The position numbers were made by a program, and so were the translations under genes. This document shows, piece by piece, positions 19,967-58,423 of a stretch of 64,000 nt of DNA (position 1 is its first letter; each line of letters starts with the position of its first letter). Source of the stretch: Gammaproteobacteria bacterium (lineage in GTDB: Bacteria > Pseudomonadota > Gammaproteobacteria > Eutrophobiales > Eutrophobiaceae); assembly GCA_026710545.1 (NCBI GenBank), contig JAPOQU010000096.1:1-64000 (forward strand). The letters run 5' to 3'. The notes beneath the pieces are model-generated. The model was not told the DNA's origin and did no database searches. It saw only the letters and a list, made by a program, of their open reading frames with translations.

Positions 19967-19986
19967 TTATCCATAGTTATCCAAAT
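19967..19986 (+). promoter_or_regulatory. Tandem TTATCCA repeats downstream of pmo promoter
   Basis: TTATCCATAG and TTATCCAAAT follow each other with a ten-base period. The same motif with ten- or twenty-base phasing recurs before etnE (45571, 45591), xecC/etnA (49650, 49670) and the aldehyde dehydrogenase (54517, 54527), so a shared regulator is inferred. Confidence 0.55.
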
Positions 19987-20941: not shown

Positions 20942-20956
20942 AGCAACTGTGTGAGA

Positions 20957-20993
20957 AACCGCCGGCTTAGGTAACACGCCGGCGGTTTTTTTT
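20957..20993 (+). terminator. Intrinsic terminator or attenuator between pmoC and pmoA
   Basis: AACCGCCGGC (20957-20966) pairs perfectly with GCCGGCGGTT (20978-20987) across an 11-base loop and is followed by a run of eight T. It sits 16 bases after the pmoC stop. It would allow extra pmoC transcript relative to pmoAB, as reported for amoC/pmoC in other bacteria. Confidence 0.85.
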
Positions 20994-21045
20994 CGTAACA
21001 AAAGATGTAAACTTTGGCTGACTTTTTGATGAAGGGGGAGTTGCT

Positions 21046-21792: not shown

Positions 21793-21862
21793 TTCACCCT
21801 GCCGCGACCTGAATAACAAGTGTAAAAATAGACTGAGTTGATGAAAATACGAGGAAGATAAA

Positions 21863-33599: not shown

Positions 33600-35651
33600 T
33601 CATCCGGCAAGTATTCTTACGTCGACCACGGTAAACTCATCCCCGTGGGCGATGACCGGGTTCATGTCAACCTGCTCAATCCAGCCCGATTCATCTATCC
33701 ACCGGGAAAAATCGGCGATCAACCGGGCAAGTGTATCCCGGTTAATCGGCACGTTACCCCGGTAGCCATCCAACACTTGCCGGCCCTTTATTTCATCCAG
33801 CATATCATGCGCCATTTCCACGCTGACGGGCGCAAGACGCAATGCTACGTCTTTAAGCACTTCCACCATTGTACCGCCGATGCCGAACGTGATGACCGGC
33901 CCGAAATTGTCATCCCGGGTTGCTCCCAGCAACAACTCCACGCCGGCCGTAATCTGCTGCTGCACCAGGAACGGCCCGCTGCCGAACAGGGATTCCATTT
34001 TATCGGCTGTTGACATCAACTCTCGCGCTGAAGAAATTCCGACCTTGACCGCTCCGGCATCGGATTTATGTATCAAATCCGGGCGTATGGCTTTAATCAC
34101 CAGGGGGTAAGCCGCATGTTTGCTGACAGAACGCAGTTCGGCTGCTCCGTTTACATAATGCCAGCGTGCTGTATTAATCCCCTCTTCCTGAATAAGAGTC
34201 AATGCAATGTCCATCGGTACCCATTCATTAGCGGAAACCCGGTCAGGGCGGGGACGCTTATTCGGACCGGCGCCGATATTCCCGGGCCTGGAGCCGATAC
34301 AGGCGGCGATGGTTTTGGCCGTTCGCAGCGGCCAGGGGTGGACGGGAATCCCGTTATCCTGCAGTTTCTTTTTATTATTGTCCGCCTCGGGCCCGGCAAC
34401 CCAGCACACATGTACAGGTTTAGCCTTTTTATTTGCCTTTGCCGACCGATACTCCTGGATGACACGCTCGGTGACTTCGGGCATTATTGCCGAACGTTGC
34501 AGCAGGACGGGCAAGATAATATCGACTTCATCGGATTCCGTTAACAACCGGATTGCCGAACCGTACATCTCGGTAAAGCGGTGCCACTGGGTAGTAACGT
34601 CGACCGGGTTTGCCGAGCTGCCCTGATCAGGTAAAAAAGCGCTTATTTTCTCCTGTAATCCCCCTGATAAGGCAGGCACTTCAAGGCCGTAATCGGTTAG
34701 CAAATCGGTCAACTCGACTCCTGTCCCACCCGAATTGGTGATGATTGCCACGCGTTTTCCCTTGTGGAACGGTTGCTTGTCCAGCGCCGCCGCGGTATCC
34801 AGCAGGGTCTGGCCGTCGGTTACCAGGTGCGCGCCGGCCTGGCGCAGTGCCGCCGCCGTTACCGCGTAATCACCGGCGAGCGCCGCGGTGTGGCTGGCGG
34901 CGGCGCGCTGCCCCGAGCCGGTCCTGCCGGTCTTTAATATGACTACCGGCCTGGTTTCAGTGGTCCGGTTTATCTCATCGAATAATGCGCGCCCGTCAGT
35001 TATGGATTCTATCAGCATGGCAATGACCCGCGTGTCAGGGTCATTGCGCAGGAAGGAAAGCAGTTCGATTTCGTTGATATCAATTTTATTTCCCGGCGCG
35101 ATCACCTTGGCAAAACCGATTTCTCCCAGTTTTGAACGGGTAAACGCGGCCATGCCGTACGCTCCGCTCTGGGTAATCAACGACACCCCGCCTTTCTCGG
35201 GCAGACCCAGTCCCAGGGAAGCGTTCAACCCCAGGTGTGTGTTAATTACACCGAAGCAGTTGGGCCCGAGCAAACGTAAATTCCCTTTAGCGGCGATTTC
35301 GGCAATCGATCGTTCAAGCGCCGTTCCTTTTTCCCCGGTTTCTGCAAAACCGCCGCTGATTATCACGGCCGTTGCGACCCCTGCCTCAACGCACTCTTCA
35401 ATAACCTGCGGCGCCGCGCCGGGTGGCGTGGTCAGGATCGCCAGGTCAACCGGGCACGGGGTATCTTTAACGGATGGGTATGTCTGAAGCCCAAGTATCA
35501 TTTCCTGTTTCGGGTTGATTGGATAGATGTTTCCCGGATAGGCGTTGACCAGGTTCTGCATGAAAAGATAACCCAGTTTTCCCTCGGTACCGGAAGCGCC
35601 GATCACCGCGACATGGTCAGCGCATAACAGGCGTTCAGCCCAGCCGCTCAT
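33600..35651 (-). CDS. NDP-forming acyl-CoA synthetase, 683 aa
   Basis: A fused alpha-beta acyl-CoA synthetase: CoA-binding Rossmann domain (IGASGTEGKLG near residue 18), succinyl-CoA ligase-like domain with the phosphohistidine loop ASHTAALAGDYAV, and a C-terminal ATP-grasp domain. The family makes an acyl-CoA from a carboxylic acid and ATP, giving ADP. The ATG at 35651 overlaps the previous stop (ATGA). In this context the acid may be acetate, a ketone-derived acid or a CoM-linked carboxylate from alkene oxidation; the substrate is not visible. Confidence 0.85.
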   Translation of the reverse strand: MSGWAERLLCADHVAVIGASGTEGKLGYLFMQNLVNAYPGNIYPINPKQEMILGLQTYPSVKDTPCPVDLAILTTPPGAAPQVIEECVEAGVATAVIISGGFAETGEKGTALERSIAEIAAKGNLRLLGPNCFGVINTHLGLNASLGLGLPEKGGVSLITQSGAYGMAAFTRSKLGEIGFAKVIAPGNKIDINEIELLSFLRNDPDTRVIAMLIESITDGRALFDEINRTTETRPVVILKTGRTGSGQRAAASHTAALAGDYAVTAAALRQAGAHLVTDGQTLLDTAAALDKQPFHKGKRVAIITNSGGTGVELTDLLTDYGLEVPALSGGLQEKISAFLPDQGSSANPVDVTTQWHRFTEMYGSAIRLLTESDEVDIILPVLLQRSAIMPEVTERVIQEYRSAKANKKAKPVHVCWVAGPEADNNKKKLQDNGIPVHPWPLRTAKTIAACIGSRPGNIGAGPNKRPRPDRVSANEWVPMDIALTLIQEEGINTARWHYVNGAAELRSVSKHAAYPLVIKAIRPDLIHKSDAGAVKVGISSARELMSTADKMESLFGSGPFLVQQQITAGVELLLGATRDDNFGPVITFGIGGTMVEVLKDVALRLAPVSVEMAHDMLDEIKGRQVLDGYRGNVPINRDTLARLIADFSRWIDESGWIEQVDMNPVIAHGDEFTVVDVRILAG

Positions 35652-36652
35652 AACCATGCTCCGTCACCGGCAAAAAATGCAGGCTCGCCGCCCGTATGTA
35701 TGAAAATGACGGTGTCGTAGTGATTGAATTTACCCCGCGCCAGTCCGTCGAGGTAGCCGGCCATGGCCTTGCCCGTATAGGTCGGGTCCAGAAGCAGACC
35801 TGCAGACCTGCTCGCAGTCCGGATTGCCGCGCTGCCTTCGGGGCTTGGAATTCCATAACCCTCACCTATAAAACCGCCGTGAACCGGCGCGTCGGCCCTG
35901 GTAAAACTCATGTCCACGTCCAGCAGGCCTGCCGCTTCCGTTGCCAGTGCTGCGACCTGCTCAGCCACTTCAGCCGGCTCCCTGCTGACCGTAAAACTCT
36001 CAATTTTCCAGTCAAGCCCAAGCAACCGCAGCCCCAGTAACCAACCGGCAAAAGTGCCGCCGGAGCCCAGTGGAAAGATGATTGCATCCGGTTCGAGCCC
36101 AAATTGTTCGCATTGTAACTGCAGCTCGCGTACCGCTATGACATGGCCCAGTGCCCCCAAGGCACAAGCACCGCCCCTGGGTATGGGATAGGGACGTTTT
36201 CCCCGGCTTTCCAACTCGTCTGCCACTTTATTGATATAGCCGTCAACCGAGGACCTTTCAGGGGCTCCGGTAAACCGAATCTCTGCTCCCAACATTTTTG
36301 TTACACGGTAATTTCCATCGACCGTGCCCGGCTCCTCACCCCAGTAAATGGCGACACAGTCCAGTTTCTTGTACGCAGCAACTGCGGCGGTTGCCCGAAC
36401 ATGGTTGGATTGCACGCCGGCTCCGGTGATCAATGTATCTTTGCCGGTATTCAGAGCATCCTGCAACAAGACTTCGAGGCCGCGCACCTTGTTGCCGCCC
36501 ATTGCAAAGCTGATTAAATCATCCCGTTTGAACCAGATATCCGGCCCCCCGATTTGATCGCGTAACTGTTCGGCCTGTATCAGTGGAGTGGGATATTGGG
36601 CCAGGTGGTAACGCGGAATTTTATTGATGATTTCGTCAAATGATGAACTCAT
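35648..36652 (-). CDS. PLP enzyme of the D-cysteine desulfhydrase family (CoM biosynthesis candidate)
   Basis: A fold-type II PLP protein with the Schiff-base Lys in AMGGNKVRGLE, the phosphate loop GSGGTFAG and GAGVQSNHVRA, typical of D-cysteine desulfhydrase/ACC deaminase. In Xanthobacter the CoM biosynthetic set includes a PLP enzyme of this kind (XcbE1) beside a ComA homologue and two fumarase-like proteins, the same company found here. It is inferred to put the thiol sulfur onto the CoM precursor. TAATG links it to the preceding lyase gene. Confidence 0.85.
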   Translation of the reverse strand: MSSSFDEIINKIPRYHLAQYPTPLIQAEQLRDQIGGPDIWFKRDDLISFAMGGNKVRGLEVLLQDALNTGKDTLITGAGVQSNHVRATAAVAAYKKLDCVAIYWGEEPGTVDGNYRVTKMLGAEIRFTGAPERSSVDGYINKVADELESRGKRPYPIPRGGACALGALGHVIAVRELQLQCEQFGLEPDAIIFPLGSGGTFAGWLLGLRLLGLDWKIESFTVSREPAEVAEQVAALATEAAGLLDVDMSFTRADAPVHGGFIGEGYGIPSPEGSAAIRTASRSAGLLLDPTYTGKAMAGYLDGLARGKFNHYDTVIFIHTGGEPAFFAGDGAWL

Positions 36653-38007
36653 TATAAATCTATCCCTGCAACCATCCGCTCTACCATGGCGGAACAGTGA
36701 CCTGTGCTGTTGTTCAATTCAAAGCATTCATCCAGTTCAGCGGGGCTGAGCCATTGCGCGATATCCGCATCTTCAACCAGGATCGTTTTCAGATGACGAC
36801 CCGTTTCGTGCGCCTGCATGGCGCAGTTATAAACATGCCGGTGGGCAGTCTGCTTACCTGTCCTGGCCGACAGTTTAAGCATAACCGCTTCCGAATAAAT
36901 CATGCCGTTGGTGCCTGCCAGGTTCTCCAGCATCTTTTCTTTGTTGACTACCAGGTTCGGCAACAACGATTGCAGCAATACCAGCACTTTATCGGTTACC
37001 AGGCTGCTCTCCGGTATGATCAGCCACTCACCTTTCCACGACCTGCCGTCACGCTCGTGATCATGGACCAGGTTTTCCATCATCCAGGCAGCATGATGGC
37101 GCACCAGGCGGGACAAGGTGCCCAGGTGTTCGGAGATTTCCGGGTTCCTTTTTTGCGGCATGGTAATACTGCCCACGGTGCCGCTGACAAAACCCTCGGC
37201 GACCTCACCGATTTCCGGCCGCTGCAAATTATAAATCTCCTGGCCGATACGGTCCCCGCTCGCGCCGATTAACGCCAGGTTGTTCAGCCATTCGGCATAA
37301 CGGTCCCGGGTAGTCGTCCAGGAGATGGGGGGCGGAGAAAGGCCCAGCTTCCTGCAAAACGCCTGCTGGATAGCCTGCGCCCCGGGACCCAGGGATGACT
37401 GGCTGCCAACCCCGCCGGCAAGCTGGCCGATTGCCAGCCGGGCTCTCATTTCACGCAACCGCTGCCGGTGGCGATCAAACTCATCCAGCCAGGTCGCGGC
37501 CTTGTAGCCGAATGTGACGGGCAACCCGATTTGACCATGGGTACGGCCGCACATCGGCGTATCCTTGTGATCGAGGGCAAGTTTAACCAGGTCCTTCTCG
37601 ATCCGTGTGATGCGTTTTACAAACAGGTCCAGGACATAGACGAGGGTCCTGCACATCTGGGTATCCGTTATGTCATGCACCGTCGCTCCGTAGCACAGCC
37701 ATTCCCCAGGGTCGCCACACCTCTTTTGCATCGCCTTGATCAGACCGATCAGTGAATGGTTGGTCTTCCTGAAATCCTCTCCTGCCTCAGTTAAAAACTC
37801 TTCATCGACAACCAGGTTCTCGAAAGTTGTACGGATCCCCCGGGCCGCTTCAACAGGTATCAATTCGTGCTCTGCCTGGACTTCCGCCAGGACGGTCATC
37901 ACTTCCATCCAACCGCGCACCAGGCCTGTTTCCGAAAACAGTTCCGTGGTTTCGGGCGTAGTCCATGACGAGCCGTAAATGGTGAAATCACTGATATGCG
38001 TAACCAT
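36652..38007 (-). CDS. Aspartase/fumarase-superfamily lyase, adenylosuccinate-lyase-like (CoM biosynthesis candidate)
   Basis: A 451-residue member of the aspartase/fumarase superfamily with the signature loop GSITMPQKRNP and a catalytic-type motif CGRTHGQIGLPVTFG. It is closest in feel to adenylosuccinate lyase. The bacterial CoM pathway uses superfamily members in place of the archaeal chemistry; one (XcbC1) eliminates phosphate from phosphosulfolactate to give sulfoacrylate. Which of the two lyases here does that is not decided by sequence reading. Start at 38007 (MVTHISDF) rather than the longer frame because it sits eight bases after the upstream stop. Confidence 0.8.
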   Translation of the reverse strand: MVTHISDFTIYGSSWTTPETTELFSETGLVRGWMEVMTVLAEVQAEHELIPVEAARGIRTTFENLVVDEEFLTEAGEDFRKTNHSLIGLIKAMQKRCGDPGEWLCYGATVHDITDTQMCRTLVYVLDLFVKRITRIEKDLVKLALDHKDTPMCGRTHGQIGLPVTFGYKAATWLDEFDRHRQRLREMRARLAIGQLAGGVGSQSSLGPGAQAIQQAFCRKLGLSPPPISWTTTRDRYAEWLNNLALIGASGDRIGQEIYNLQRPEIGEVAEGFVSGTVGSITMPQKRNPEISEHLGTLSRLVRHHAAWMMENLVHDHERDGRSWKGEWLIIPESSLVTDKVLVLLQSLLPNLVVNKEKMLENLAGTNGMIYSEAVMLKLSARTGKQTAHRHVYNCAMQAHETGRHLKTILVEDADIAQWLSPAELDECFELNNSTGHCSAMVERMVAGIDL

Positions 38008-38014
38008 TCCGTCT

Positions 38015-39550
38015 TTACCCCGGGTACTGCCGCGCCGTGTCCAGCAACTGCTTTTCAATGCGCAGCAGACGCTGTTTGCCCTGCTCTGCGTTTTCCCCGA
38101 TCAGTTGCAATTTCTTCTCACAGCCTTCCAGCATTTCATCCATGGATCCCAGCGCCGGAGTACCCGGTTCGGTGTGCGCTTCCAGGGCCCGACCAGGGTC
38201 CAGCGCCTGTTTGATATCCTCGTCACTGATCGATATTTCACGGCCCAGAACTGCTGCAGCCGCCTGCTTGAGAATTGACGCATTGATATTTTTTATCCCG
38301 CCTTCCGTGTCCCCATGGAACAGGCTTGCGACCAGTTCATAGGCGCTTCGATAGTCGATTTTGCCGCGCAGAACCAGGGTTTCCGCCAAATCGGTCGCCA
38401 TGATCGAAGGATCATCCAGGAGTTCTCTTGCGCGTTCATGCTTCAACTCCATATTCAGGACCACGTCGGTCATCAGGTAGACGGCGTTGATCAGGTTGGA
38501 TACGGCATCGGGTACGGCGCCGTATATCCACAACCTGTTATCGGGTTGTCCTGTCGGGGTCCTTGCCATGGCGTTCACGGAAGTCATCAACCCCATCAGT
38601 TCATTGCATACGCTGCGGACATGTGTCAGCGCAAACGGGTTTTTCTTCTGGGGCATGATCCTGCTGGCGCGGGCATGCTGGTCCGCCAGTTCCACCAGGA
38701 CAAATCCCTGGCTGGAAAATATTTGCAGGTCTTCAGACAAGCGGCTCATATTCACCGCGCAGCTACAGAATACGGCCGCGCTCTCGATGGGTATATCGGG
38801 CTGCCACATGGCGTCGCGGGTGTGGATGCTCAGGGCATCAAACCCAAGCAAATCCGCCATTTGCCGTCTGTCTACGGCCAGTCTTGACCCCGTGGTACTG
38901 CCGCAACCCATGGGACTGGAATTGACGCGGCGATACAGTTGTTGAATCCGTTCGCAGTCCCTGAATACGGGGTAGAGAAAGCCGGCCAGGTAATGGCCGA
39001 AGGTAGTCGGTTGCGCCGCCTGCAGGTATGTGTAATCCGGTACATACGCCTGCTTGAAGTCCCCAGCCCGTTGTTTCAGCGCCTGTCCGAATTGTGCGAG
39101 TGAAGCAAGCAATTCCAGCAGCCGCTGCCTCAGTAAAACATGGAAAGCGGAGGTTGTCGCTTCCCGCCGCGCTCTTCCTGCGCCGAGCCACCCGACCGAA
39201 TCCGTCCGTTGCCGTAACCATGCTTCCCTGTTGGTATATAAATCGCCTGCTTCCGGCCCGGGGGTAAAACTGTCCGGCCGTGAATGTAATTCGAGTAACC
39301 CTGCCAACAGTTCGCCTCCCTTCCCGGCAGGGATGATACCGGTATTTATCCCGGTAATCGTATAGGCCAGGTCAACCAGTCCCATGGCGGAAAACAGGCC
39401 CAGTTGTTGTTTGAGTTCCTGTGAGAAAGCGGAATCTACCAGGCTGGCTGCCGGCGCTGATTTCAGTCTGTCCCGCTCAAGAACCGCCTGGCCGCTTTTC
39501 CCTGGAGTATGGGATTTGCCCATTGATTTTTCAGTCGGTACCCTTGACAT
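38015..39550 (-). CDS. Aspartase/fumarase-superfamily lyase, argininosuccinate-lyase-like (CoM biosynthesis candidate)
   Basis: About 511 residues with the superfamily loop ASRIMPQKKNPFAL and the GSTTGSRLAVDR region of argininosuccinate lyase-like proteins. It is the second fumarase-type gene in tandem with the adenylosuccinate-like one, which mirrors the xcbC1/xcbD1 pair of Xanthobacter. An arginine-biosynthesis role is unlikely in this company. It overlaps the ComA-like gene; start at 39550 is tentative, 39523 being an alternative. Confidence 0.78.
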   Translation of the reverse strand: MSRVPTEKSMGKSHTPGKSGQAVLERDRLKSAPAASLVDSAFSQELKQQLGLFSAMGLVDLAYTITGINTGIIPAGKGGELLAGLLELHSRPDSFTPGPEAGDLYTNREAWLRQRTDSVGWLGAGRARREATTSAFHVLLRQRLLELLASLAQFGQALKQRAGDFKQAYVPDYTYLQAAQPTTFGHYLAGFLYPVFRDCERIQQLYRRVNSSPMGCGSTTGSRLAVDRRQMADLLGFDALSIHTRDAMWQPDIPIESAAVFCSCAVNMSRLSEDLQIFSSQGFVLVELADQHARASRIMPQKKNPFALTHVRSVCNELMGLMTSVNAMARTPTGQPDNRLWIYGAVPDAVSNLINAVYLMTDVVLNMELKHERARELLDDPSIMATDLAETLVLRGKIDYRSAYELVASLFHGDTEGGIKNINASILKQAAAAVLGREISISDEDIKQALDPGRALEAHTEPGTPALGSMDEMLEGCEKKLQLIGENAEQGKQRLLRIEKQLLDTARQYPG

Positions 39551-40397
39551 CCGTATTGTCAGGCTCAACTTCATTGGGGTCCCAACGGCCGCTTTTCAAC
39601 AGGTCCTTCGTAACGCCATGCAATGTTTCAAATCTCAGGCCATTTCTAAGCGCTTCCAGGGCCAGGACTTCGTTGCATTCGATATTGCCGATATTGACAT
39701 TACTTCCAAAGCGTTCTATCAGGAACGATTGTTGCGACCTCAGCGGGGCCTCCCAGATCAGCCGATTTATCTTATCCCCCATGATTTCCATAATCCTGTC
39801 CACCTCGATCTCTTCCACATGACCATGCTCATCGTATATACCGATCCCTACTCCACTTTCCCTTCCTTCGACAATGACCCATTCGGCTCCCCATTCCAGG
39901 TCCTCCAGCGCCTCCGTTGCCAGTTGTTCGCTCGTCGGCTGCCGTTTGGGGTCTTTTTTTCCGACTTCGGTGATCGCGACAAGGCCTGCGTTCAGCGCAC
40001 AATCGATGATATTTTTTCTTCGAAAGCGCGGAATGGATATGGTTCCATCGGAAATCTCGACCGCCTTGAAGCCCAGTTTCTTCGCATGGTGCATATAAAC
40101 GCGGCAATGGTGTTCAACCAGCGCGACTTCCAACAGGGTGCCTCCCGGGAAAGTCAGTATGTTATTGCTGTTGAGCAGCTCAAGTTTTTCCATGATCACC
40201 CGTCTCTCCATGAACGCCGATGTGCCGAAGCTGAATTTCCACAAATCCGTCAGGTGTGATGAAATCGACAGTGCGTCCCTGGTTTCATACAGGCCGCGCC
40301 CGGTATCGTTCACCATGGTAAGTCCTTGCCGGCGCGGTTTATCGGTCCTGGGGTCCCGGGTGCTTCTGATGATCCTGTTCCAGGCCAGTTCAGGCAT
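39531..40397 (-). CDS. comA: ComA-like phosphosulfolactate synthase (XcbB1 equivalent)
   Basis: ComA adds sulfite to phosphoenolpyruvate, the first step of coenzyme M synthesis. The 288-residue protein has the TIM-barrel signature AVEISDGTISIPRFRRK and AITEVGKKDPKRQ, together with TFPGGTLLEVAL near residue 90. An N-terminal extension of about 40 residues precedes the family core. The ATG at 40397 overlaps the stop of the preceding gene. It is the key marker that this operon makes CoM locally. CoM is rare in bacteria and nearly always tied to epoxyalkane metabolism, which is also encoded here. Confidence 0.9.
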   Translation of the reverse strand: MPELAWNRIIRSTRDPRTDKPRRQGLTMVNDTGRGLYETRDALSISSHLTDLWKFSFGTSAFMERRVIMEKLELLNSNNILTFPGGTLLEVALVEHHCRVYMHHAKKLGFKAVEISDGTISIPRFRRKNIIDCALNAGLVAITEVGKKDPKRQPTSEQLATEALEDLEWGAEWVIVEGRESGVGIGIYDEHGHVEEIEVDRIMEIMGDKINRLIWEAPLRSQQSFLIERFGSNVNIGNIECNEVLALEALRNGLRFETLHGVTKDLLKSGRWDPNEVEPDNTDVKGTD

Positions 40398-41304
40398 AAT
40401 CCACACCCTGGGATACTTCTCTCAATGCCCGTTCCACCATGGGCAGGTCTGCACCCCATGGGACTACCGCCAGTTCGTCCTCCTGCTCAACGTCAAATTC
40501 AAGCAGGCAGCATTTCAATATGGTCCTTTCGCCGTTCCTGGTTACGATTTGACGCGGACACATCTCGACTTGCGGGGGGTCATCATTGTAATAATGCCGG
40601 TGAAACTGCAGACTCCGCTCGCAGCCCACCAGGGTCCAGTTTTCTCTTTTTTCCGGTCGTTCATCCAGAAAAAATACCGGCGCGCCCAGGTCATCCAGCC
40701 CGCCCGAACGACAGGGTACCAGGTAGGCCTCGGGCGTGACGGATTTACATAAATCGACGAGTTCGATTTGTTCCAGCCTGGGTACGATGGGAGGCAGGTC
40801 GGCATAGCCCAGCACCTGTTCCACCATGTGATACAGCTTGGGCGGCTCCGGCGGCACGACCTCCACGACGCGCAGCAGCAGCGGGTCCGGGCGATGGATG
40901 ATATTCACGTGGTCAAACGTGCCCACAACGATGGCCGTCTTGTCGCTGGATACATTATTATCGACTGTCAGTTTGGCCAGAGCGGAGCGGTTAGCCGGAT
41001 CCGTTCCCGGACTTTCCAGATAAACACAGTCCTCCGGCAACGCCAGGACCTCAACATTATCGACACGATTGAACAGATCCGAGGAGGGTTTTCGTTGAAC
41101 CGCGACCACTGCATATTCCTGCTCGTCATTATGCAATACGATGACATCGGTCCGGCGGTAGACTTCACGGGAGCTGATGTGGTTTTCAACAGCGCCTGCC
41201 GTCATCACACCGGTGTAGGGCTGGAAGCTGACGCGGCGATACGGCAAGGGAACAAAATTCAGTTGTTGCCTCAGTCCTCCCGTTTGTAGTATTTCACCGC
41301 CCAT
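40390..41304 (-). CDS. Unrecognised protein within the CoM/CoA-transferase operon, 304 aa
   Basis: No family recognised. It is soluble, with no signal peptide or membrane helix. Cysteines are at VPCRSGG, VGCERS, EMCPRQ and a CC pair in ILKCCLLEF, and several histidines occur (LYHMVEQ, FHRHYY), which could bind a metal. It sits tightly between the CoA-transferase beta gene and comA and overlaps the latter, so it is very likely part of the alkene pathway. Either a step in CoM synthesis or processing of a CoM-linked intermediate is possible. Confidence 0.7.
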   Translation of the reverse strand: MGGEILQTGGLRQQLNFVPLPYRRVSFQPYTGVMTAGAVENHISSREVYRRTDVIVLHNDEQEYAVVAVQRKPSSDLFNRVDNVEVLALPEDCVYLESPGTDPANRSALAKLTVDNNVSSDKTAIVVGTFDHVNIIHRPDPLLLRVVEVVPPEPPKLYHMVEQVLGYADLPPIVPRLEQIELVDLCKSVTPEAYLVPCRSGGLDDLGAPVFFLDERPEKRENWTLVGCERSLQFHRHYYNDDPPQVEMCPRQIVTRNGERTILKCCLLEFDVEQEDELAVVPWGADLPMVERALREVSQGVDYA

Positions 41305-44311: not shown

Positions 44312-45424
44312 TTATGCCTTGCCCAGTTCTGCGCGAACAATCTTGGCGCCTTCCACCATGGCATACAATTTTTCCTGCGCAATATATCGCTGCAATAAAA
44401 TGATGCCGCAGTCAGTCGTCACACCCAATTGTTCAGCAGGGACTACAGTAAGCAATTGCCGGATCTTGGCAGCCACATCCTCAGCCGTTTCCGTTATGGT
44501 GCTCTTGACGTCAATTACACCTGCCCAGAACTTCATATTTTCCGGTATGGGATGTTCCTTCAGAATATCCAGACCCGAATTTTCAAACGGCAGACGACCG
44601 ATGCCTTCAATATTAAATACATCGATGTTTGCCTGGTACGATTGCGGGACCACTGATGAAGTCGGGTTCGGTGCATCAGCGTCCTCTGCGCGCTTCGTCA
44701 AATCATAGACATCACCCGCATCGGCAGTATCATCAGGATAATAGGCCGGGGTGCCGCCCCAGTTGCCCCAACAGATATGGCAGACGATTTTTGCATTTTT
44801 GACGCCTTCCACGGCCCTGTTGAAAGCCTCGATAGCCCAGTCCTCGTAGAAATAAGGCCAGGTGAATTCATCCAGTTGAATATAATCGGCCCCCAGGTCA
44901 TCGACGGCAAGGATATCTTCGTTAATGGCCTTGGCAACGTCCATAGCGCGATCACGGCTGTTGGAGTAGTACAGATCGTTAGTGCACTGGGCTAATACCT
45001 GTATGCCCGTGTACTGGATCTTGATGGGTTTATCCGTGACCTCACGCAACGCTCTTGCCTGCTCCACCATCATCTGCCCGCGGCGTTTTATTTCCTGCGT
45101 GACCGTGCCGGCATGCAACCGGCTGTAGATCGGGAACCCGAGGTAACCACCGGACAGGTCATAACCCATGCGCCTTAAATAATGATACACGGCAACGTCG
45201 GCATAATTATCACCTTGCAAACGGCCGTCGGCTATAATATCCAGGCCCGCGTGGTTCTGATCATGGGCAATTGCTGCCATTGCATCTTCCAGGGCTTCCC
45301 GGGACATCGCATCGGGCGGGTTCTGATCACCGGTAAAGTACCTGGCGTAATCTGCGTCCCACCAGCGAGGGTTGGGATAATTGCCGACCATGCTTGTTGG
45401 AATTAACACACCACTCTCTGCCAT
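44312..45424 (-). CDS. etnE: Epoxyalkane:coenzyme M transferase (EtnE/XecA)
   Basis: EaCoMT opens epoxides with the thiol of CoM, giving 2-hydroxyalkyl-CoM. The 370-residue protein belongs to the zinc-dependent methionine synthase II-like family, with zinc ligands His216 and Cys218 (VCHICWGNWGG) and Cys339 (TTDCGIILL). The blocks SMVGNYPNPRWWDADYARYF and IQLDEFTWPY are those of EaCoMT from propene and ethene degraders rather than MetE. AGGAGG precedes the ATG. A 219-base gap carrying TTATCCA repeats lies before it, so it may have its own promoter after etnABCD. Confidence 0.93.
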   Translation of the reverse strand: MAESGVLIPTSMVGNYPNPRWWDADYARYFTGDQNPPDAMSREALEDAMAAIAHDQNHAGLDIIADGRLQGDNYADVAVYHYLRRMGYDLSGGYLGFPIYSRLHAGTVTQEIKRRGQMMVEQARALREVTDKPIKIQYTGIQVLAQCTNDLYYSNSRDRAMDVAKAINEDILAVDDLGADYIQLDEFTWPYFYEDWAIEAFNRAVEGVKNAKIVCHICWGNWGGTPAYYPDDTADAGDVYDLTKRAEDADAPNPTSSVVPQSYQANIDVFNIEGIGRLPFENSGLDILKEHPIPENMKFWAGVIDVKSTITETAEDVAAKIRQLLTVVPAEQLGVTTDCGIILLQRYIAQEKLYAMVEGAKIVRAELGKA

Positions 45425-45551
45425 TTTAAACCTCCTCCCCAGTCGGGAAATTATTGGCCCCGTTGTCTGTCAGGCCGCGTTATTGTTTCCGTGAATGATG
45501 GGCGAACACTCTTGTCCATTCGGGAAACATTTTCTAAACTCATATTTAATC

Positions 45552-45600
45552 TTATCCAAGCGCTGTTTATTTGTCCATAACTATTCACTATTATCCATAC
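45552..45600. promoter_or_regulatory. TTATCCATA-type repeats upstream of etnE
   Basis: TTATCCAAGC (45552), TTGTCCATAA (45571) and TTATCCATAC (45591) lie on the plus strand at 19- and 20-base spacing in the etnD-etnE gap. The same motif occurs near the pmoC promoter and the other alkene genes. Binding by one regulator is inferred. Confidence 0.5.
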
Positions 45601-45643: not shown

Positions 45644-46663
45644 TCAATCAGATGTGGCCGGATAAAATGCATCGAAATAAACATTCCGCGGCCTGACTCC
45701 CCGTTCCAAAAGCAAGGATGTCGCCGCATCTATCATGGGGGGTGGCCCACACAGATAGGCGTCGCAATTCCTGTATGATTCCCTGTGTCGGGCCAGCGCT
45801 TCCGTTACCAGTCCCGTTTCCCCGCGCCAGTCACCCGGCCAGCTATCGGATAACACCGGGATAAATTCCAGCACCGGCATGGTTTGAACCACGGCTTCTA
45901 TCTCCTTGATATAGTAAAGATCATCATTTGTTCTAGCGCCAAAAAAGAATTGGACGGGCCGTTCATTTCCTTTTTCCGCTAATCGGTTCAGCATGGATAA
46001 TAACGGAGCCAGACCGGACCCGCCGGCAACCATGATGATGTTTCTGTGTGAGAGTCTGATTCTCAGTTCCCCATAAGGACCATGGACCTGTAATCTGTCG
46101 CCTGTATTTAACCGGTCCTCCAACAGTTTGGAAAATCTTCCTTCCGGAAAGATCTTGACGATGAATTCCAGAAAGTTTTTTTCTTCAGGGGAGTTTGCCA
46201 TTGAATAGGGCCGCCAATGCTGAGTGCCCGGAACCTGTATATTGGCAAATTGACCTGCGGTAAATTTCATCTCATCCTCATCGACAATACGCAACCGCAG
46301 CCTGCGAATATCCTTTGTCAGAGGTTCATTGATTTCTATCCTGGTTTCATATTCCCTGGACTGGTCTCCGGCAAGAAACTCTTCTTGCGAAATACCCATA
46401 CTACCGATATCAATTGTACAGTCGTCTGTCGGAGTCGACACGCAAGGGAGAAACCAGTCATCTTCTCTTTCTGCAGGGCTTAAACAAAACGTGGAGGGAG
46501 GTTCGTCAATATCTCCGTCAAGCAGACGCGATTTGCAGGTGCCGCAGCCACCGTGTTTGCAACCATAGCGTATAAACAATCCCTGTCTCAGCGCAGCCTT
46601 TAATAAGGTTTCCCCATCCTCACACTCAAATTCATGGTGGAAAGGCTCGACCGTTATTTTCAT
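45644..46663 (-). CDS. etnD: Alkene monooxygenase reductase (EtnD)
   Basis: A 339-residue ferredoxin-NAD(P)H reductase: N-terminal [2Fe-2S] domain with YGCKHGGCGTC and a fourth Cys in STFCLSP, then an FAD domain (WRPYSMANSP) and an NAD domain (MVAGGSGLAPLLSML). It feeds electrons from NADH to the diiron alkene monooxygenase. It follows the alpha-subunit gene by six bases, in the etnABCD order. Confidence 0.92.
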   Translation of the reverse strand: MKITVEPFHHEFECEDGETLLKAALRQGLFIRYGCKHGGCGTCKSRLLDGDIDEPPSTFCLSPAEREDDWFLPCVSTPTDDCTIDIGSMGISQEEFLAGDQSREYETRIEINEPLTKDIRRLRLRIVDEDEMKFTAGQFANIQVPGTQHWRPYSMANSPEEKNFLEFIVKIFPEGRFSKLLEDRLNTGDRLQVHGPYGELRIRLSHRNIIMVAGGSGLAPLLSMLNRLAEKGNERPVQFFFGARTNDDLYYIKEIEAVVQTMPVLEFIPVLSDSWPGDWRGETGLVTEALARHRESYRNCDAYLCGPPPMIDAATSLLLERGVRPRNVYFDAFYPATSD

Positions 46664-46669
46664 CTGTAG

Positions 46670-48184
46670 TCAGAGGCAGACTCCATGAAGCGGGTCCTTG
46701 ACCTCGTATTTGAGCGCGCGAATGTCGTCAATAGTCCACATCTTCTGATCAGGAGATACCGTAGGTTGGCCTATCAGGGTTTTACCATCAGGACGGATAT
46801 AGCCGAGATCTGAAATGACATCAGCCAGGTCCCAGCCGTGATACTTGTGCCAGAACTGCTTGCGCCGGGTATAGGCCTTCGGCCATTTTCTCAATACCCA
46901 TTCACATCCTTCACTGCAGGTCGGATACTGTGATCCATTGACTTCAACCAGGCGGAATTCATTGATATCCAGTCTTGGCAGCGCACAGGGCAACTGGCAA
47001 ACCTGGCAAATCGGCGGCAGACTTTCCAACTCCTGCAATATGATGTGCCCACCTGCCGGATCCGCCAATTGTTTATACCCATCCCAGTATGCGCCGTAGT
47101 GATTATGCCAACCCGGATAATTTTTCTCGAACCATTCGTAGTCTTTTTCATTCATGGCATCGGAACGCCAGAAATTCAGCGGCCAGATAGCCGAAAATAC
47201 CTGGCCGACCGTATGGGTCATCCAGTCAAGATCTTCCACGGCCTTTCCCAGAAATCTCGGCACTTCGACGCCGAATTCACCCAGGCCTTCCAGGTAACCC
47301 CCGACAAAATCATCGACAATCCATTCCTGCCATTGGTCCCTGTAAGCCCATGCACGATTTACGGAACCGTATTCAGACTGCCATCCGACCAGGGCATCCA
47401 GTCCCTTGTGCGCATGCCAGAAATGGCGTTCAAGGGCGTCGTTAACCAACGGCACATTCTCCTCATTGCGCAGGACCGATATCAACGAGCCGTATCCGTT
47501 CGCCATATGCCGCGCTTCATCGGATTGAATTGAAAGAAATGTTGTCGCCAGGGCATGATCGCCATTCAGGACTGCCGACTGTGGCGCAGCGACCAGGAGG
47601 ATATTGGTATAAGCAGTTTCAATTACAATATTCAGGTCAATAATACAGTCTATGGGATCACCGGTATTGAAATGCTGGAATTCACCTATTGCGACAAGCC
47701 CGCCGGGATGCTGGAACAGGGCTTTTTGTCCAAGATCCCACCCGGCCGGGTCAGGAACATTCTTCACATAATAGTTACGTAAGGCCATTTCCAGCTGGGT
47801 ATGACGAATTTCATCCAGCATCTGCGCATGATAGCCTTGCCTGAGTTCCTGGTTCTGAACGGATGAAATAATGCCGCCGCAGGCTGCAACTGCCACATAT
47901 TCAGCATTGCCCAGGTCCAACAGTGTCAATTTCAAACACTCGTTAAACCTTGGTTCCATTTTTTCCGCTATTCCCATCCTCAGCGCGCCATCGATAAATC
48001 CATGGGTGCGATCATCCTTTTCGGCTTCCATCTTCATGTAATCCCTCACCAGCATACGAAAAGGGTCCTTGCCTTTCGTCGGGATATTATATTTAGTGTC
48101 AAATTTCGGCTTTTTTTCCGTAAACGAAAAATCCCAATCGTAATCTTTTGCCTTTTCATGTACTTCTACGAGATTAGCTGTCAT
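46670..48184 (-). CDS. etnC: Alkene monooxygenase alpha subunit (EtnC), diiron hydroxylase
   Basis: The catalytic subunit of a group 4 soluble diiron monooxygenase, 504 residues. The six iron ligands can be placed: Glu95, Glu125 and His128 (DEIRH), Glu189 (VIETAY), Glu223 and His226 (DEARH), with spacing almost identical to that of methane monooxygenase. It epoxidises short alkenes with O2. The gene order beta, coupling, alpha, reductase and the four-component make-up match the EtnABCD/AmoABCD enzymes of Mycobacterium, Nocardioides and Rhodococcus, not the six-component enzyme of Xanthobacter. Ribosome site GGGGGAG. Confidence 0.93.
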   Translation of the reverse strand: MTANLVEVHEKAKDYDWDFSFTEKKPKFDTKYNIPTKGKDPFRMLVRDYMKMEAEKDDRTHGFIDGALRMGIAEKMEPRFNECLKLTLLDLGNAEYVAVAACGGIISSVQNQELRQGYHAQMLDEIRHTQLEMALRNYYVKNVPDPAGWDLGQKALFQHPGGLVAIGEFQHFNTGDPIDCIIDLNIVIETAYTNILLVAAPQSAVLNGDHALATTFLSIQSDEARHMANGYGSLISVLRNEENVPLVNDALERHFWHAHKGLDALVGWQSEYGSVNRAWAYRDQWQEWIVDDFVGGYLEGLGEFGVEVPRFLGKAVEDLDWMTHTVGQVFSAIWPLNFWRSDAMNEKDYEWFEKNYPGWHNHYGAYWDGYKQLADPAGGHIILQELESLPPICQVCQLPCALPRLDINEFRLVEVNGSQYPTCSEGCEWVLRKWPKAYTRRKQFWHKYHGWDLADVISDLGYIRPDGKTLIGQPTVSPDQKMWTIDDIRALKYEVKDPLHGVCL

Positions 48185-48197
48185 GACATCTCCCCCA

Positions 48198-48497
48198 TCA
48201 GTCGTTGAAGCGTTCGGGCTTTATCTCCGAGAAGATTTCAACCTTTCCATCAGAAACAACAATTCGGCCGTAGTAGGAACTCATATTTACCAGAAAAATA
48301 TCCGTATCAAGGTCACGGCCCAGGAAATCTGATATCCCTTCCATATCAAATTCAAGTTTATTATCACGTTCAACTTTGTAATAACAGTCACGATCACTCA
48401 CGCGGGCATCACTTGCACTTTCTTCCAGGTATTCCAGGGTCGCCCGTGTTTCATCACTTTTCATCAATGAGATACCGACACTATTATTTGAAATCAT
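48198..48497 (-). CDS. etnB: Alkene monooxygenase coupling protein (EtnB)
   Basis: A 99-residue MmoB/DmpM-type effector protein, with SVGISLMKSDETRATLEYL at the start and a C-terminal IVVSDGKVEIFSEI strand pair. Coupling proteins bind the hydroxylase and time O2 activation. A long open frame continues upstream into etnA, but the ATG at 48497 with AGGAG eight bases before it gives the normal family length. Confidence 0.88.
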   Translation of the reverse strand: MISNNSVGISLMKSDETRATLEYLEESASDARVSDRDCYYKVERDNKLEFDMEGISDFLGRDLDTDIFLVNMSSYYGRIVVSDGKVEIFSEIKPERFND

Positions 48498-48513
48498 AAT
48501 TATATCTCCTCGT

Positions 48514-49527
48514 TTAAAGTCCAAGCTCTTGTACCAGCGATGATTGCATGTTTTTAACCCGGGTAAATCCCTGTTCAAAAGGGTCGGCATCAATTCCATC
48601 AATCTCGAAAACCGTTTGCAATGACTGTGCTGCTTTTTCGCACAGCGGCGTCCATTTTGCCAGCCAGCTTCCAATAATCTTTTTATTGTCAGTTCCATGT
48701 TCTGAGTCAGCCAAAACCATATTGACAATTGCCTGAACAAGTTGCAGGTGATATTTAGAGTCACGCCGCGCATTCGCCAGAATCATAGGCGTGACTGCAT
48801 CCCCATTTATGGGCGCATTCTTGGTCATGAATTCGGTTTTGAATAAATTTCCGACCAGCGGCTCAAACACCAGCCCCAAAACAACGACTATCTCTGCCCA
48901 ATCATCGGAATCGATAAGGCGCTCGGTTATTTCACGAGTTGGAACAAGCGCGGGAGAATCCATCCAGGCTGACCTGGCTTGTTCATCGGAATAGCCGGGT
49001 AACGCTTCCTTTAAATCAAAAATCAGATGCACTATATCCTGTTGATGGCGTACTTTATCTGTAGCCTGAAACCCCAGCGAAAACGTGAGTGTTGCATCCA
49101 GTACCTGCCGTACTGCATAGCATATTGCCAAAAATTGGCCATACTCCACAAAAGGCCATGCTGCATAATACTTACCCAGAATTTCATCCCGCCAGACCGG
49201 ATTGATGCGGTCGGCAACACCATCCTGCAACGCCTGTTTTGTCATGCCGTCCAGTGCCTGCTCTTCATGGTTGTTTCGAGAGACATAAGGCCTTTGCCAT
49301 ACTTTCATGGGATCACGAAATTCATCCCAGGCAGTACATTTTATTTCCGAGGCAGCTTCTGTGAAAGGCTCTTGACCATCATCAAAACAAAGCGGCCAAT
49401 CAACATCCAGCCATTGATGAGGGCCTGACTGTTGTCCTAATGTGTAGGATTCGTAATCAGTGGGTCTACGTCTTTCCGGTTTAAACCAGGTGAAATGCCG
49501 GTTTCCCGACAAATTTGCAGTAGTCAT
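48514..49527 (-). CDS. etnA: Alkene monooxygenase beta subunit (EtnA)
   Basis: The non-catalytic hydroxylase subunit of a soluble diiron monooxygenase, 337 residues, helical, with RHFTWFKPERRRPTDYE at the N-terminus, a block typical of beta subunits, and no diiron motifs. GGAGGGG precedes the ATG. It is the first gene of the minus-strand alkene operon and diverges from xecC over a 198-base region with shared control repeats. Confidence 0.9.
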   Translation of the reverse strand: MTTANLSGNRHFTWFKPERRRPTDYESYTLGQQSGPHQWLDVDWPLCFDDGQEPFTEAASEIKCTAWDEFRDPMKVWQRPYVSRNNHEEQALDGMTKQALQDGVADRINPVWRDEILGKYYAAWPFVEYGQFLAICYAVRQVLDATLTFSLGFQATDKVRHQQDIVHLIFDLKEALPGYSDEQARSAWMDSPALVPTREITERLIDSDDWAEIVVVLGLVFEPLVGNLFKTEFMTKNAPINGDAVTPMILANARRDSKYHLQLVQAIVNMVLADSEHGTDNKKIIGSWLAKWTPLCEKAAQSLQTVFEIDGIDADPFEQGFTRVKNMQSSLVQELGL

Positions 49528-49649: not shown

Positions 49650-49679
49650 TTATTCATAACTATAATTAATTATCCAAAC
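49650..49679. promoter_or_regulatory. TTATCCA-type repeats in the etnA-xecC divergent promoter
   Basis: TTATTCATAA (49650) and TTATCCAAAC (49670) lie 20 bases apart, one on each side of an A+T-rich spacer, between the two divergent alkene operons. An inverted repeat ACTATC/GATAGT is just upstream (49609-49641). A shared activator site is inferred. Confidence 0.5.
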
Positions 49680-49704: not shown

Positions 49705-52049
<2,345 letters not shown>

Positions 52050-52094: not shown

Positions 52095-52895
52095 TCAGCC
52101 TGCGCTGCTCGGGCTGAAACCGGTTTCCAGGCGATCAACCAATTGTACGTGTGTATGTACGCACAAATTGTCATATACCGTGGAACCTGAGAACTGGTAG
52201 ACAGGATATTGACAAATAACGGTGACCCAGGGGGTAACCTCCAGCATCGCGTCCAGGGCTGCCTCATACGGAACCAGTTGTTCACAGCCCATAACGCCGC
52301 TGCTGGCCCAGCCCATCTCACCCGTAAGAAGTAACCTCTTGGTGCCGGATGCCTCGTGCGTGGTGATAATATTCTGCCAGAAGGACAACATGCGATCGGT
52401 ACTGAAGTGGCCGTCTTTCAAATACGTATCAGCATCGGTATGCAGTTCAAGTACGCCACGACCAATCAGGTCTTCCGGGTCCAGGTCTTCGTTTCTGAGC
52501 CAGTTCAACAGTTGCTGTTTGTCCCGCTGATAGATATAGACGGTTTTCGCTTCCGAATTGAGGTGATCGAGCAGTTGCATCCGTAGCAGGGCCCACTGTT
52601 CTTTGGGACTCTTGAAAAAAGTACAGATGTGTTTACGCGTTTCGCGCCGCCCCTGTTTGACAGACCGGGAATCGTCAGATGCAGACATTCGATAATCGTC
52701 CTGATAATCGCCTGTATCAATGGATTTACCCATAAAAGCGACCAGGTCGTCAAGTAAAAAACGGCGTTCATTGCGATGGCCCACGCGATAACAGGCGAGG
52801 CGTTTATTGTTTGTCCAGCGTCGCAATGAGGTTTTACTGACTTTAAGGTAATCTGCTGCTTCTGTGATAGTAAGAAATTTCTTCTGTGCCGGCAT
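52095..52895 (-). CDS. DcmR-like regulator with excisionase HTH and MEDS domain
   Basis: An N-terminal MerR/excisionase-type helix-turn-helix (TITEAADYLKVSKTSLRRW, about residues 10-28) is joined to a MEDS domain (FFKSPKEQWALL, VYIYQRDKQQ, YLKDGHFSTDRML, RLLLTGEMGW). MEDS was named from methanogen/methylotroph DcmR sensors and is thought to bind hydrocarbon derivatives. It is the only regulator inside the alkene locus, between xecD and the aldehyde dehydrogenase. It is the natural candidate for binding the repeated TTATCCATA sites, one of which lies before its own gene. The ATG at 52895 follows GAGGGG. Confidence 0.85.
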   Translation of the reverse strand: MPAQKKFLTITEAADYLKVSKTSLRRWTNNKRLACYRVGHRNERRFLLDDLVAFMGKSIDTGDYQDDYRMSASDDSRSVKQGRRETRKHICTFFKSPKEQWALLRMQLLDHLNSEAKTVYIYQRDKQQLLNWLRNEDLDPEDLIGRGVLELHTDADTYLKDGHFSTDRMLSFWQNIITTHEASGTKRLLLTGEMGWASSGVMGCEQLVPYEAALDAMLEVTPWVTVICQYPVYQFSGSTVYDNLCVHTHVQLVDRLETGFSPSSAG

Positions 52896-52968
52896 AGGGC
52901 CCCTCAAGGAGAATTGTTGTATAACAGCTAATTATATCATATTTTTTCTTACTCACACATAATCAATG

Positions 52969-52978
52969 TTGTCCATAA
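52969..52978. promoter_or_regulatory. Single TTGTCCATAA copy upstream of the DcmR-like gene
   Basis: One copy, identical to that at 45571, lies 74 bases before the regulator start, in the 121-base gap to the aldehyde dehydrogenase gene. Autoregulation is possible. Confidence 0.35.
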
Positions 52979-53016
52979 CCCCTCATTGCCGTAATACTGC
53001 CGCAGTAAACATCTCA

Positions 53017-54447
53017 CTACCGCCCATGCTTGTCCCAATGTGCCGAGAACAGCGATTCTTCGTCTATTGCCCGTGGTGTAACGGGCCTTGATACCCAGGT
53101 CTCGTTTATCATGTGGCGCGCATTGACATTTTCGGTGGTGATATTCCCACCCCAGGTGCCGCAACTCAGGCTTAATGTATACGGCAACCCGTTGCGCGGG
53201 CTTCCTGCGCCTTCGTTAAGATTCTGATTTATCATGACACGGCCGGTTTTGGTGTTCATCGCCACCGCCATAATGTTTTCCTCGGTGTTTGAATGGATAC
53301 CGCAGGTATGACCCTGTCCCTGGTAGTCGGTGATCGCATTGACCTGGTCAATGGCGTTGTCTATCGCTCCTGAATACCTGTACAAAGCCAGAACCGAAGA
53401 CAGCTTCTCCCCTGAAAACGGATATGCCGGACCTGCCCCGGATTCTTCCACGATCAGGTAGCCGCAATCTTCAGGAACGTCAATACCCGCCAATTCAGCA
53501 ATAGTCGTTGCAGGTTTGGCAATAATCTCCAGGGCAGGTATATGATTGCCGGGATCAGGCCACATAAGTTCCTGTAGCTGCCTTTTCTCATCGGCTGAGC
53601 ATAAATATCCTCCCATCGCCTGTAACCTGTCTGCAAACTCACCATAAACAGCCTCGTGCGCTATCACTGCATTATCAGCCAGACAGGACGTAGCGTAATC
53701 GAACTTTTTCGCGGCCGTAACGGCGTTGGCTGCATCATCCAAATCTCCAGTCTCATCAACAACATGCACACTGTTGCCGACGCCGACGCCATAGGCCGGC
53801 GTGCCGGAACTGTAAGCCGCTTTCACCATGCCGGCGCCACCTGTGGCAACCACCAGGTCAGCCATCTCCATCAGAGCCCGGGTCTTTCCCAGCGATGGCT
53901 TCCGGATCGCCTGCACCAGGTCTGCCGACGCGCCGGCCTGTTCACAGGCTTCACGCATATAGTTGACTGTCAACTCGGTAGTCTGCTGGGTGCGGGGATG
54001 GGCGGCAACGATGATGGCATTGCGGCCCTTTACCGCCAGTAGCGTCTTCAGCGGTGGAGTTGCATCCGGACCGGTTGTCGGTATCAGCGCTGCAACCACG
54101 CCGACCGGCTTGGCGATTTTGATCAATCCCCTGTCAGGATCTTCCGCAATGATTCCGGCTGTCTTAACCGATTGCATGTCTGCCAGCGTGCCCATGCAGC
54201 GGTTGCGTATTTTCATTACCTTGTCGGGGTAGTTACCGAACCCGCCTTCATCCACGGCAATCCTGGCAAGCTCTTCGGCACGGTCCTGACGCACTATTGC
54301 CCAGCAGATTGCAGTGACAAGTTCGTCAACCTGCTGCTGGTTGTAGTTCTCGATTTTCTTCTGGGCAGACTTTGCCCGTTCAATCAGCGATGCAACTTCC
54401 GCTCTCTCTGCTTTTGCTTTCTCATCAGCTTCCATTTTTTCTCTCAT
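53017..54447 (-). CDS. CoA-acylating aldehyde dehydrogenase
   Basis: A 476-residue protein of the EutE/AdhE-N/SauS acylating group, with NAD-site region PTTGPDATPPLKTLLAVKGRN and the catalytic Cys in FDYATSCLADNAV. It converts an aldehyde and CoA to an acyl-CoA. Of named relatives, sulfoacetaldehyde dehydrogenase (SauS) seems near, so a sulfonated aldehyde such as 2-oxoethyl-CoM from ethene, or sulfoacetaldehyde itself, is a plausible substrate; this is inference. It is divergent from the FadL gene with shared repeats. Two close ATGs (54447, 54435) leave the start open by four codons. Confidence 0.85.
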   Translation of the reverse strand: MREKMEADEKAKAERAEVASLIERAKSAQKKIENYNQQQVDELVTAICWAIVRQDRAEELARIAVDEGGFGNYPDKVMKIRNRCMGTLADMQSVKTAGIIAEDPDRGLIKIAKPVGVVAALIPTTGPDATPPLKTLLAVKGRNAIIVAAHPRTQQTTELTVNYMREACEQAGASADLVQAIRKPSLGKTRALMEMADLVVATGGAGMVKAAYSSGTPAYGVGVGNSVHVVDETGDLDDAANAVTAAKKFDYATSCLADNAVIAHEAVYGEFADRLQAMGGYLCSADEKRQLQELMWPDPGNHIPALEIIAKPATTIAELAGIDVPEDCGYLIVEESGAGPAYPFSGEKLSSVLALYRYSGAIDNAIDQVNAITDYQGQGHTCGIHSNTEENIMAVAMNTKTGRVMINQNLNEGAGSPRNGLPYTLSLSCGTWGGNITTENVNARHMINETWVSRPVTPRAIDEESLFSAHWDKHGR

Positions 54448-54516: not shown

Positions 54517-54547
54517 TTATGGATAAAAATGGATAATTGTGTATAAT
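54517..54547. promoter_or_regulatory. Tandem repeats and -10 box between aldehyde dehydrogenase and FadL genes
   Basis: TTATGGATAA and AAATGGATAA are in direct ten-base repeat (the complement of TTATCCATTTTTATCCATAA). They are followed by TATAAT at 54542-54547, which would serve the plus-strand FadL gene with the repeats over the -35 position. That arrangement suits an activator. Confidence 0.55.
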
Positions 54548-57225: not shown

Positions 57226-57373
57226 GGCGGGTGACCTGTACGGGTTATATCAAAATAGCGTCATATCACAAGATGAGTGGATCGGTCCAATAGTATATAT
57301 ACATGATTCCTATAACCGCCGTATCAACATGAGATGCCTGTCCCGGCAACAGACAAACATTATCCGGGCTCTC

Positions 57374-58408: not shown

Positions 58409-58423
58409 ATCCCCACTCCCATG

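Follow-up and report, generated by a model that had tools for sequence, protein, structure and literature searches.

The 64,000-nucleotide stretch of gammaproteobacterial DNA analyzed here (hereafter, the window) carries a complete alkene/epoxide:CoM gene set, composed of EaCoMT, a group-4 alkene monooxygenase (AMO), a 2-KPCC-type reductase, short-chain dehydrogenases (SDRs), xcbA-E, and SauS, and CoA-transferases are likewise encoded at this locus. EaCoMT, which is of the EtnE/XecA type (44312..45424, minus strand), is 69% identical to the 2-hydroxypropyl-CoM lyase of Xanthobacter Py2. The four AMO genes (reductase, alpha, coupling, and beta; 45644..49527, minus strand) are of the group-4 SDIMO type, and the alpha subunit shows 55% identity to that of the etn cluster of M. 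chubuense NBB4. The genes for a 2-ketopropyl-CoM reductase/carboxylase-like protein (2-KPCC, or KPCC; 49726..51300, plus strand; 65% identity to Py2) and a hydroxypropyl-CoM dehydrogenase-like SDR (51297..52049, plus strand; 63% identity to Py2) form a pair lying tail to tail with an HTH-MEDS regulator gene (52095..52895, minus strand), and directly upstream of the latter, on its other side, is the gene for a SauS-like acylating sulfoacetaldehyde dehydrogenase (53017..54447, minus strand). In many EaCoMT loci, such a dehydrogenase is encoded next to the MEDS/EtnR2 gene. The CoM biosynthesis genes xcbE, xcbD, xcbC, xcbB/comA, and xcbA are located at 35648..41304 (minus strand), and a pmoCAB/amoCAB-type copper monooxygenase operon (20123..23092, plus strand) has the same putative operator pair in front of it. 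The copper monooxygenase and the group-4 AMO are thus encoded ~22 kb apart with operator boxes in common; in the marine alkene users Haliea ETY strains and PE-TB08W, one or the other monooxygenase type has been reported (PMC6440738). An AraC/FeaR-like regulator, a nitrilase, and a TonB receptor form a further unit (56233-60769), the AraC gene of which is conserved beside nitrilase or TonB genes in genomes of the same genus that lack the alkene cluster.

The regulator ORF starts with ATG at 52895, stops at 52097-52095 on the minus strand, and encodes 266 amino acids, with an HTH_17/excisionase-type head (residues 7-55), a linker (65-84), and a MEDS domain (89-262). The MEDS profile PF14417 matches residues 89-247 (E = 1.7e-34; 119.4 bits against a cut-off of 29.8) over profile positions 2-160 of 161, above the gathering cut-off, and the head matches HTH_17 (PF12728, E = 1.5e-12) and the excisionase-type HTH of TIGR01764 (2.7e-10), while no MerR family was matched in Pfam at E 0.001. 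An earlier note on this DNA had described an HTH plus MEDS protein inside an epoxyalkane:CoM locus, and the ORF, its start and strand, the profile matches, and the neighboring genes all agree with that description. The genome (4.4 Mb) has no other MEDS gene. In the same-genus genome G002, the order KPCC-SDR-MEDS-SauS is kept and the MEDS protein is 90% identical, while the regulator was matched in none of four other same-genus genomes of at least 94% completeness, nor in one of 77% completeness. No phage relatives of the regulator were found.

The MEDS sensory domain (52155..52631, minus strand) keeps H89, E211, C228, Y230, and H247, the invariant His, Glu, C-x-Y, and His found in all 33 aligned sequences, and has the clade-specific residues Q100, W101, H111, Y120, and L189. 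A sequence search of solved structures with the regulator returned nothing useful. The predicted fold (mean pLDDT 86.6, with a low-confidence or disordered linker at 65-84) gives the MEDS domain a RecA-like core related to FlaH/KaiC (Z 13-15), with Z of 15.0 over 162 residues to FlaH (4wia) and 14.2 to KaiC. Unlike these proteins, to which its identity is ~10%, the MEDS domain has no Walker A motif: [AG]x4GK[ST] was absent from the regulator and from 55/55 MEDS domains. In the model, therefore, MEDS looks like a former nucleotide-binding fold.

In a maximum-likelihood tree of 57 MEDS domains, the 15 EaCoMT-associated HTH-MEDS proteins fell into one clade (support 100/99; 100% of bootstrap trees), which includes both the window protein and Xaut_4864, encoded beside xecA1 in Xanthobacter Py2, and whose hosts belong to the Gamma-, Alpha-, and Betaproteobacteria and the Chloroflexota. 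All 15 members come from genomes or plasmids with EaCoMT, and 14 are encoded within 17 kb of it; for the fifteenth, the Py2 paralog Xaut_5016, the distance on their common plasmid is 31 kb. Two HTH-MEDS proteins of the window's family, from genomes without ComA/XcbB (L004 and L005), were placed outside the clade, and joining them to it was mildly rejected (p 0.04). A single origin of all CoM-linked MEDS was rejected when L067 was included (p 0.0003), but not when it was left out (p 0.085). The window gene is real and belongs, probably in functional form, to a conserved family of HTH-MEDS proteins that regulate the alkene/epoxide:CoM pathway.

Some further members and relatives deserve mention. 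Xaut_5016 (L006:17992-18747), the second HTH-MEDS gene of Py2, encodes a protein 57% identical to Xaut_4864, and adjoins an IS66 transposase and methylmalonyl-CoA mutase-like genes at 31 kb from the second xecA. One Chloroflexota EaCoMT cluster (L028:12301-13059) encodes a second protein with HTH-like and MEDS-like parts, which is divergent and sits on a very long branch of the tree. Proteins of 515-608 amino acids from several Pseudomonadota (L138-L143) gave weak, partial matches to the MEDS profile (E ~1e-5 to 1e-3) and are possibly KaiC-like ATPases, which would fit the fold result. In Halobacterium hubeiense (L144:3962-6974), a MEDS gene lies two genes from that of a 2-phosphosulfolactate phosphatase (ComB-like), possibly a relic of CoM synthesis or a coincidence.

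With an EaCoMT alignment as bait, 84,980 species genomes were scanned, yielding 80 loci. A MEDS gene was present within 10 kb of EaCoMT in 26 of these, despite many short contigs (the distance in the window is 7.5 kb). Of 45 genomes without MEDS in that range, 19 nevertheless carry MEDS genes, which in 12 cases share the contig of EaCoMT at a distance of 11-25 kb and in four more adjoin SauS or EtnR1 on other contigs. The survey of MEDS genes next to etnE/xecA that the earlier note had proposed thus found a MEDS gene on the same contig within 25 kb for 38 of 80 EaCoMT genes, and this linkage, together with the restriction of the clade to EaCoMT-bearing genomes and plasmids, bears out its association of the regulator with the alkene/epoxide:CoM pathway. 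Because only 14 of 298 evenly sampled Pseudomonadota genomes (the window's own not counted) carry any MEDS above the cut-off, the proximity is far beyond chance in this phylum. In Actinomycetota, MEDS genes are common, with up to 11 matches per genome, so that linkage means less there, and it is adjacency to EtnR1, SauS, or EaCoMT that counts.

The repeat TTATCCATA, which on the opposite strand corresponds to TGGATAA boxes, matches the window 32 times at up to one mismatch, against 12.2 +/- 3.6 in shuffled sequences. The informative copies occur in four promoters, those of pmoC, EaCoMT, KPCC/AMO, and SauS, as pairs with a phasing of 10 or 20 bp. The pmoC pair (TTATCCATAGTTATCCA, 19967..19983) is exact, with its boxes 10 bp apart, lies just downstream of a TTGACT-18-TATACT promoter, and is identical in G002. 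Upstream of EaCoMT (45513..45599), the minus strand reads TGGATAA, TGAATAG, and TGGACAA in 10-bp steps, plus more boxes, and ~40 bp are unchanged in G002 while the flanks have diverged in the pairwise alignment. A pair 20 bp apart between the divergent AMO-beta and KPCC genes (49650..49676) is also kept in G002, although the region has diverged. Upstream of SauS (and of MEDS), three boxes in 10-bp steps (TTATACA/TTATCCA/TTATCCA; 54518..54546) are unchanged in G002. The intergenic region immediately upstream of the MEDS gene (52896..53016, minus strand) contains a candidate promoter, TTGATT-19-TATGAT, and a single TGGACAA box (TTGTCCATA on the plus strand at 52969), which is duplicated in G002. 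Pattern searches of both genomes gave four box promoters in each: the exact 10-bp pair was found at pmoC and SauS only and the 20-bp pair at EaCoMT and KPCC, while the other one-mismatch matches were scattered and not common to the two.

Exact TTATCCA pairs were not found in other genera (G002 is the only genome beyond the window's own to have them), where only a phased profile picks the boxes up, and unphased TATCCA counts in other clade members were only weakly positive. For a transfer test of whether the boxes accompany HTH-MEDS, a seven-column profile was built from the window genome and G002 only, and applied to the 300 bp (or shorter intergenic region) upstream of EaCoMT. In 13 other clade promoters, some of which had been viewed beforehand although the profile was not trained on them, the summed z was 25.2 at lag 10 and 19.3 at lag 20, values not reached by any of 400 shuffle sets. 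Other lags gave -0.9 to 11.2; lags 9, 14, and 17 also had p < 0.01, with at most half of the lag-10 signal. In 26 EaCoMT promoters from loci without MEDS, lag 10 gave 6.4 (p 0.10) and lag 20 gave -5.7. L016 had been entered as a control in a preceding version of the test, in which its lag-10 score was the highest, and this locus was only afterwards found to carry an HTH-MEDS gene; its promoter has four successive boxes (TGAATAA, TGAATAA, TAGACAA, and TGTATAG) each 10 bp apart. The xecA1 and xecA2 promoters of Py2 have TGACTAA-N3-TGATCAA in common, followed by a third box. The signal was weak or absent in five clade EaCoMT promoters (L014, L055, L061, L028, and L030). Phased boxes thus accompany HTH-MEDS and are seen in the clade EaCoMT promoters as a set. 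The earlier note had proposed to test DNA binding to the TTATCCATA repeats, and their enrichment, their phasing in four promoters, their conservation in G002, and the profile results agree with a role as likely operators.

The regulator is partly foreshadowed in the literature, by Xaut_4864 (PMC8784404), a Methylohalobius MEDS-HTH protein (PMC11507031), and EtnR2. Xaut_4864 was proposed as a candidate regulator in Py2 because its gene lies between monooxygenase and epoxide genes and because it was found only in propylene-grown cells; the inducer of the Py2 system was called uncertain in that 2022 review (PMC8784404). Xaut_4864 is an HTH-MEDS protein 35% identical to the window protein over the full length, and its gene lies between xecA1, from which it diverges, and the xamo operon. 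Unlike in the window, the nearby monooxygenase is the group-1 xamo, and the plasmid also carries the paralog Xaut_5016 and LysR genes, a LysR gene being found at the Py2 CoM clusters as well. The review text consulted describes a MerR-like head in Xaut_4864 and mentions neither MEDS nor an operator (PMC8784404). H035DRAFT_2935 of Methylohalobius crimeensis, compared here by description only, likewise combines HTH and MEDS, and its gene closes an etnE/xcb cluster that encodes a sulfoacetaldehyde dehydrogenase but no alkene monooxygenase (PMC11507031). Regulation of this type was called possibly unique to this methanotroph (PMC11507031), whereas the HTH-MEDS type reaches three proteobacterial classes and the Chloroflexota.

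EtnR2, encoded beside the CdaR-type EtnR1 in mycobacterial etn clusters (PMC8784404; PMC8727900), resembles the window protein in that the MEDS gene lies beside EaCoMT/etn and CoM-synthesis genes in mycobacteria and Nocardioides (PMC11507031; PMC8784404), but it is MEDS-only, with a separate CdaR/PucR-type EtnR1, and belongs to another MEDS clade. The G002 cluster (L013) yielded no EtnR1 homolog. DcmR of Methylorubrum extorquens DM4, after which PF14417 is named and which is also compared by description only, has an N-terminal HTH fused to MEDS according to the literature and represses a small-molecule catabolic gene, but serves a glutathione-dependent dehalogenase without CoM (PMC12750041). 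The 8-bp core ATCCATAG is common to the pmoC box and one of two variants of the DcmR promoter motif GATC(C/G)ATAGCCT (PMC9320726); this likeness is suggestive only, since ~1% of shuffled 12-mers have it too.

We consider it reasonably probable that the window protein is a one-component HTH-MEDS transcription factor dedicated to alkene/epoxide:CoM metabolism and acting via the boxes. The part of this reading that we hold most firmly, and take to be very probable, is that HTH-MEDS is the protein binding the boxes, which it would do cooperatively, with one HTH per helical turn on one DNA face. Such an arrangement recalls cooperative excisionase filaments. The output would be the assembly or disassembly of this array, controlled by a ligand at a vestigial nucleotide site, and the regulon would take in the pmoCAB-type copper monooxygenase.

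As for the direction of control, we lean toward a protein that mainly represses and leaves the DNA once a small neutral compound of the pathway is bound by its MEDS domain. Where sigma-70 promoters are clear (pmoC, xecA1, L041, and the L028 MEDS promoter), the boxes overlap or follow them, being just past the likely start at pmoC and covering the -10 and beyond at xecA1, which suggests a DcmR-like repressor. An activator, MerR-like or class II, acting on the alkene/epoxide genes through the same boxes is rather unlikely, yet several observations point that way: Xaut_4864 was seen only in propylene-grown Py2 and has been proposed as an activator of xamo, mycobacterial EtnR1/EtnR2 are thought to be activators (PMC8784404), and the boxes at L026 and L041 are located in the spacer between the -35 and -10 elements, an arrangement known from MerR promoters. 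However, boxes placed downstream at pmoC or over the -10 at xecA1, as judged from predicted starts, would hinder RNA polymerase, the regulator matches no MerR family in Pfam, and DcmR, the best-known MEDS regulator, represses (PMC12750041). A layer of negative control is also indicated in Py2, because epoxypropane activity was constitutive from a cosmid lacking the regulator (PMC8784404).

The ligand may plausibly occupy the position that a nucleotide would take, beside the clade-specific EQW loop, because MEDS has the FlaH/KaiC fold without a P-loop. MEDS domains were predicted to sense simple hydrocarbon derivatives by Anantharaman and Aravind in 2005, as cited in PMC11507031. The earlier note had supposed that a CoM-linked ligand would explain the distribution of MEDS; such a ligand is not supported for MEDS at large, since ComA/XcbB, the marker of CoM synthesis, was found in none of 16 other MEDS genomes (0/14 random MEDS-bearing Pseudomonadota genomes and 0/2 of the same family), while DcmR is glutathione-linked. 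Nearly all clade members share W101, H111, and Y120. At position 189, where other MEDS have Arg, they have Leu, Phe, or Met, and no Arg or Lys that could hold a sulfonate is conserved in their MEDS domain. The lack of conserved Arg/Lys and the loss of the Arg at position 189 favor a small neutral ligand, an epoxide or alkene, over a sulfonate, although a sulfonate may equally be held by His, Trp, or the main chain. An epoxide or alkene is the likeliest ligand, and we give it about an even chance over a conjugate of CoM.

It is improbable, in our estimate, that the clade responds instead to CoM itself or to a 2-hydroxyalkyl- or 2-ketoalkyl-CoM adduct, an idea raised in the earlier note. Every clade member, across three proteobacterial classes and the Chloroflexota, does occur with EaCoMT, SauS, a C2-sulfonate enzyme, often adjoins, and we infer that alkene and epoxide inducers could all become CoM adducts. 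Against this stand, besides the residues above and the presence of MEDS without CoM synthesis, the absence of the clade-specific residues from EtnR2, which serves the same pathway, and the detection of epoxide reported for the EtnR1/EtnR2 pair (PMC11507031). The fully specified version, in which the clade senses 2-hydroxyalkyl-CoM through the P-loop-less KaiC-like domain with a ligand-controlled array on the 10-bp-phased boxes, is quite doubtful; if true, alkene oxidation, epoxide conjugation, and CoM synthesis would be turned on only after a CoM conjugate forms.

Another candidate owner of the boxes is the AraC/FeaR-like regulator at 56233-57225, with the MEDS protein then doing something else. 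We took it seriously because of the AraC-like half-site: the half-site of E. coli AraC closely resembles TTATCCATA, and AraC proteins bind direct repeats ~21 bp apart. The AraC gene is also only 3 kb away, and G002 has one at the same place. However, three genomes of the genus without MEDS and pmoC genes (G001, G003, and G005) encode proteins 81-90% identical to it; these copies, too, adjoin the nitrilase or TonB genes, and phased boxes are absent from their surroundings; moreover, no AraC homolog was found in the other box-bearing EaCoMT loci, where HTH-MEDS is present. On these grounds AraC/FeaR is disfavored as the owner, and we regard it as very unlikely. Finally, it is scarcely credible that the MEDS gene merely rides along on a mobile cluster as a passenger that encodes a broad stress regulator, for while alkene/CoM clusters do sit on plasmids or genomic islands (PMC11507031, and loci in this work) and MEDS is missing from the EaCoMT clusters of many methanotrophs, the linkage survives across phyla despite differing gene orders, the HTH-MEDS clade is restricted to EaCoMT-bearing genomes and plasmids, and the operator signal depends on the presence of HTH-MEDS.

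To our knowledge, the box array and the putative regulon are new, and the descriptions that we found do not extend to the breadth of the family, its likely operator, or a regulon that takes in the copper monooxygenase. Such a regulator may lend itself to a compact biosensor made of one protein, which would report ethylene, propylene, or the epoxides of either, with possible use in vinyl chloride remediation. The analysis joins the Xaut_4864 candidate and the window gene in one family, with a likely operator and likely promoter targets, and links the copper monooxygenase to the same putative regulon. For the induction of the bacterial CoM pathway by alkenes or epoxides, it thereby offers a candidate switch that is open to direct binding and reporter tests.
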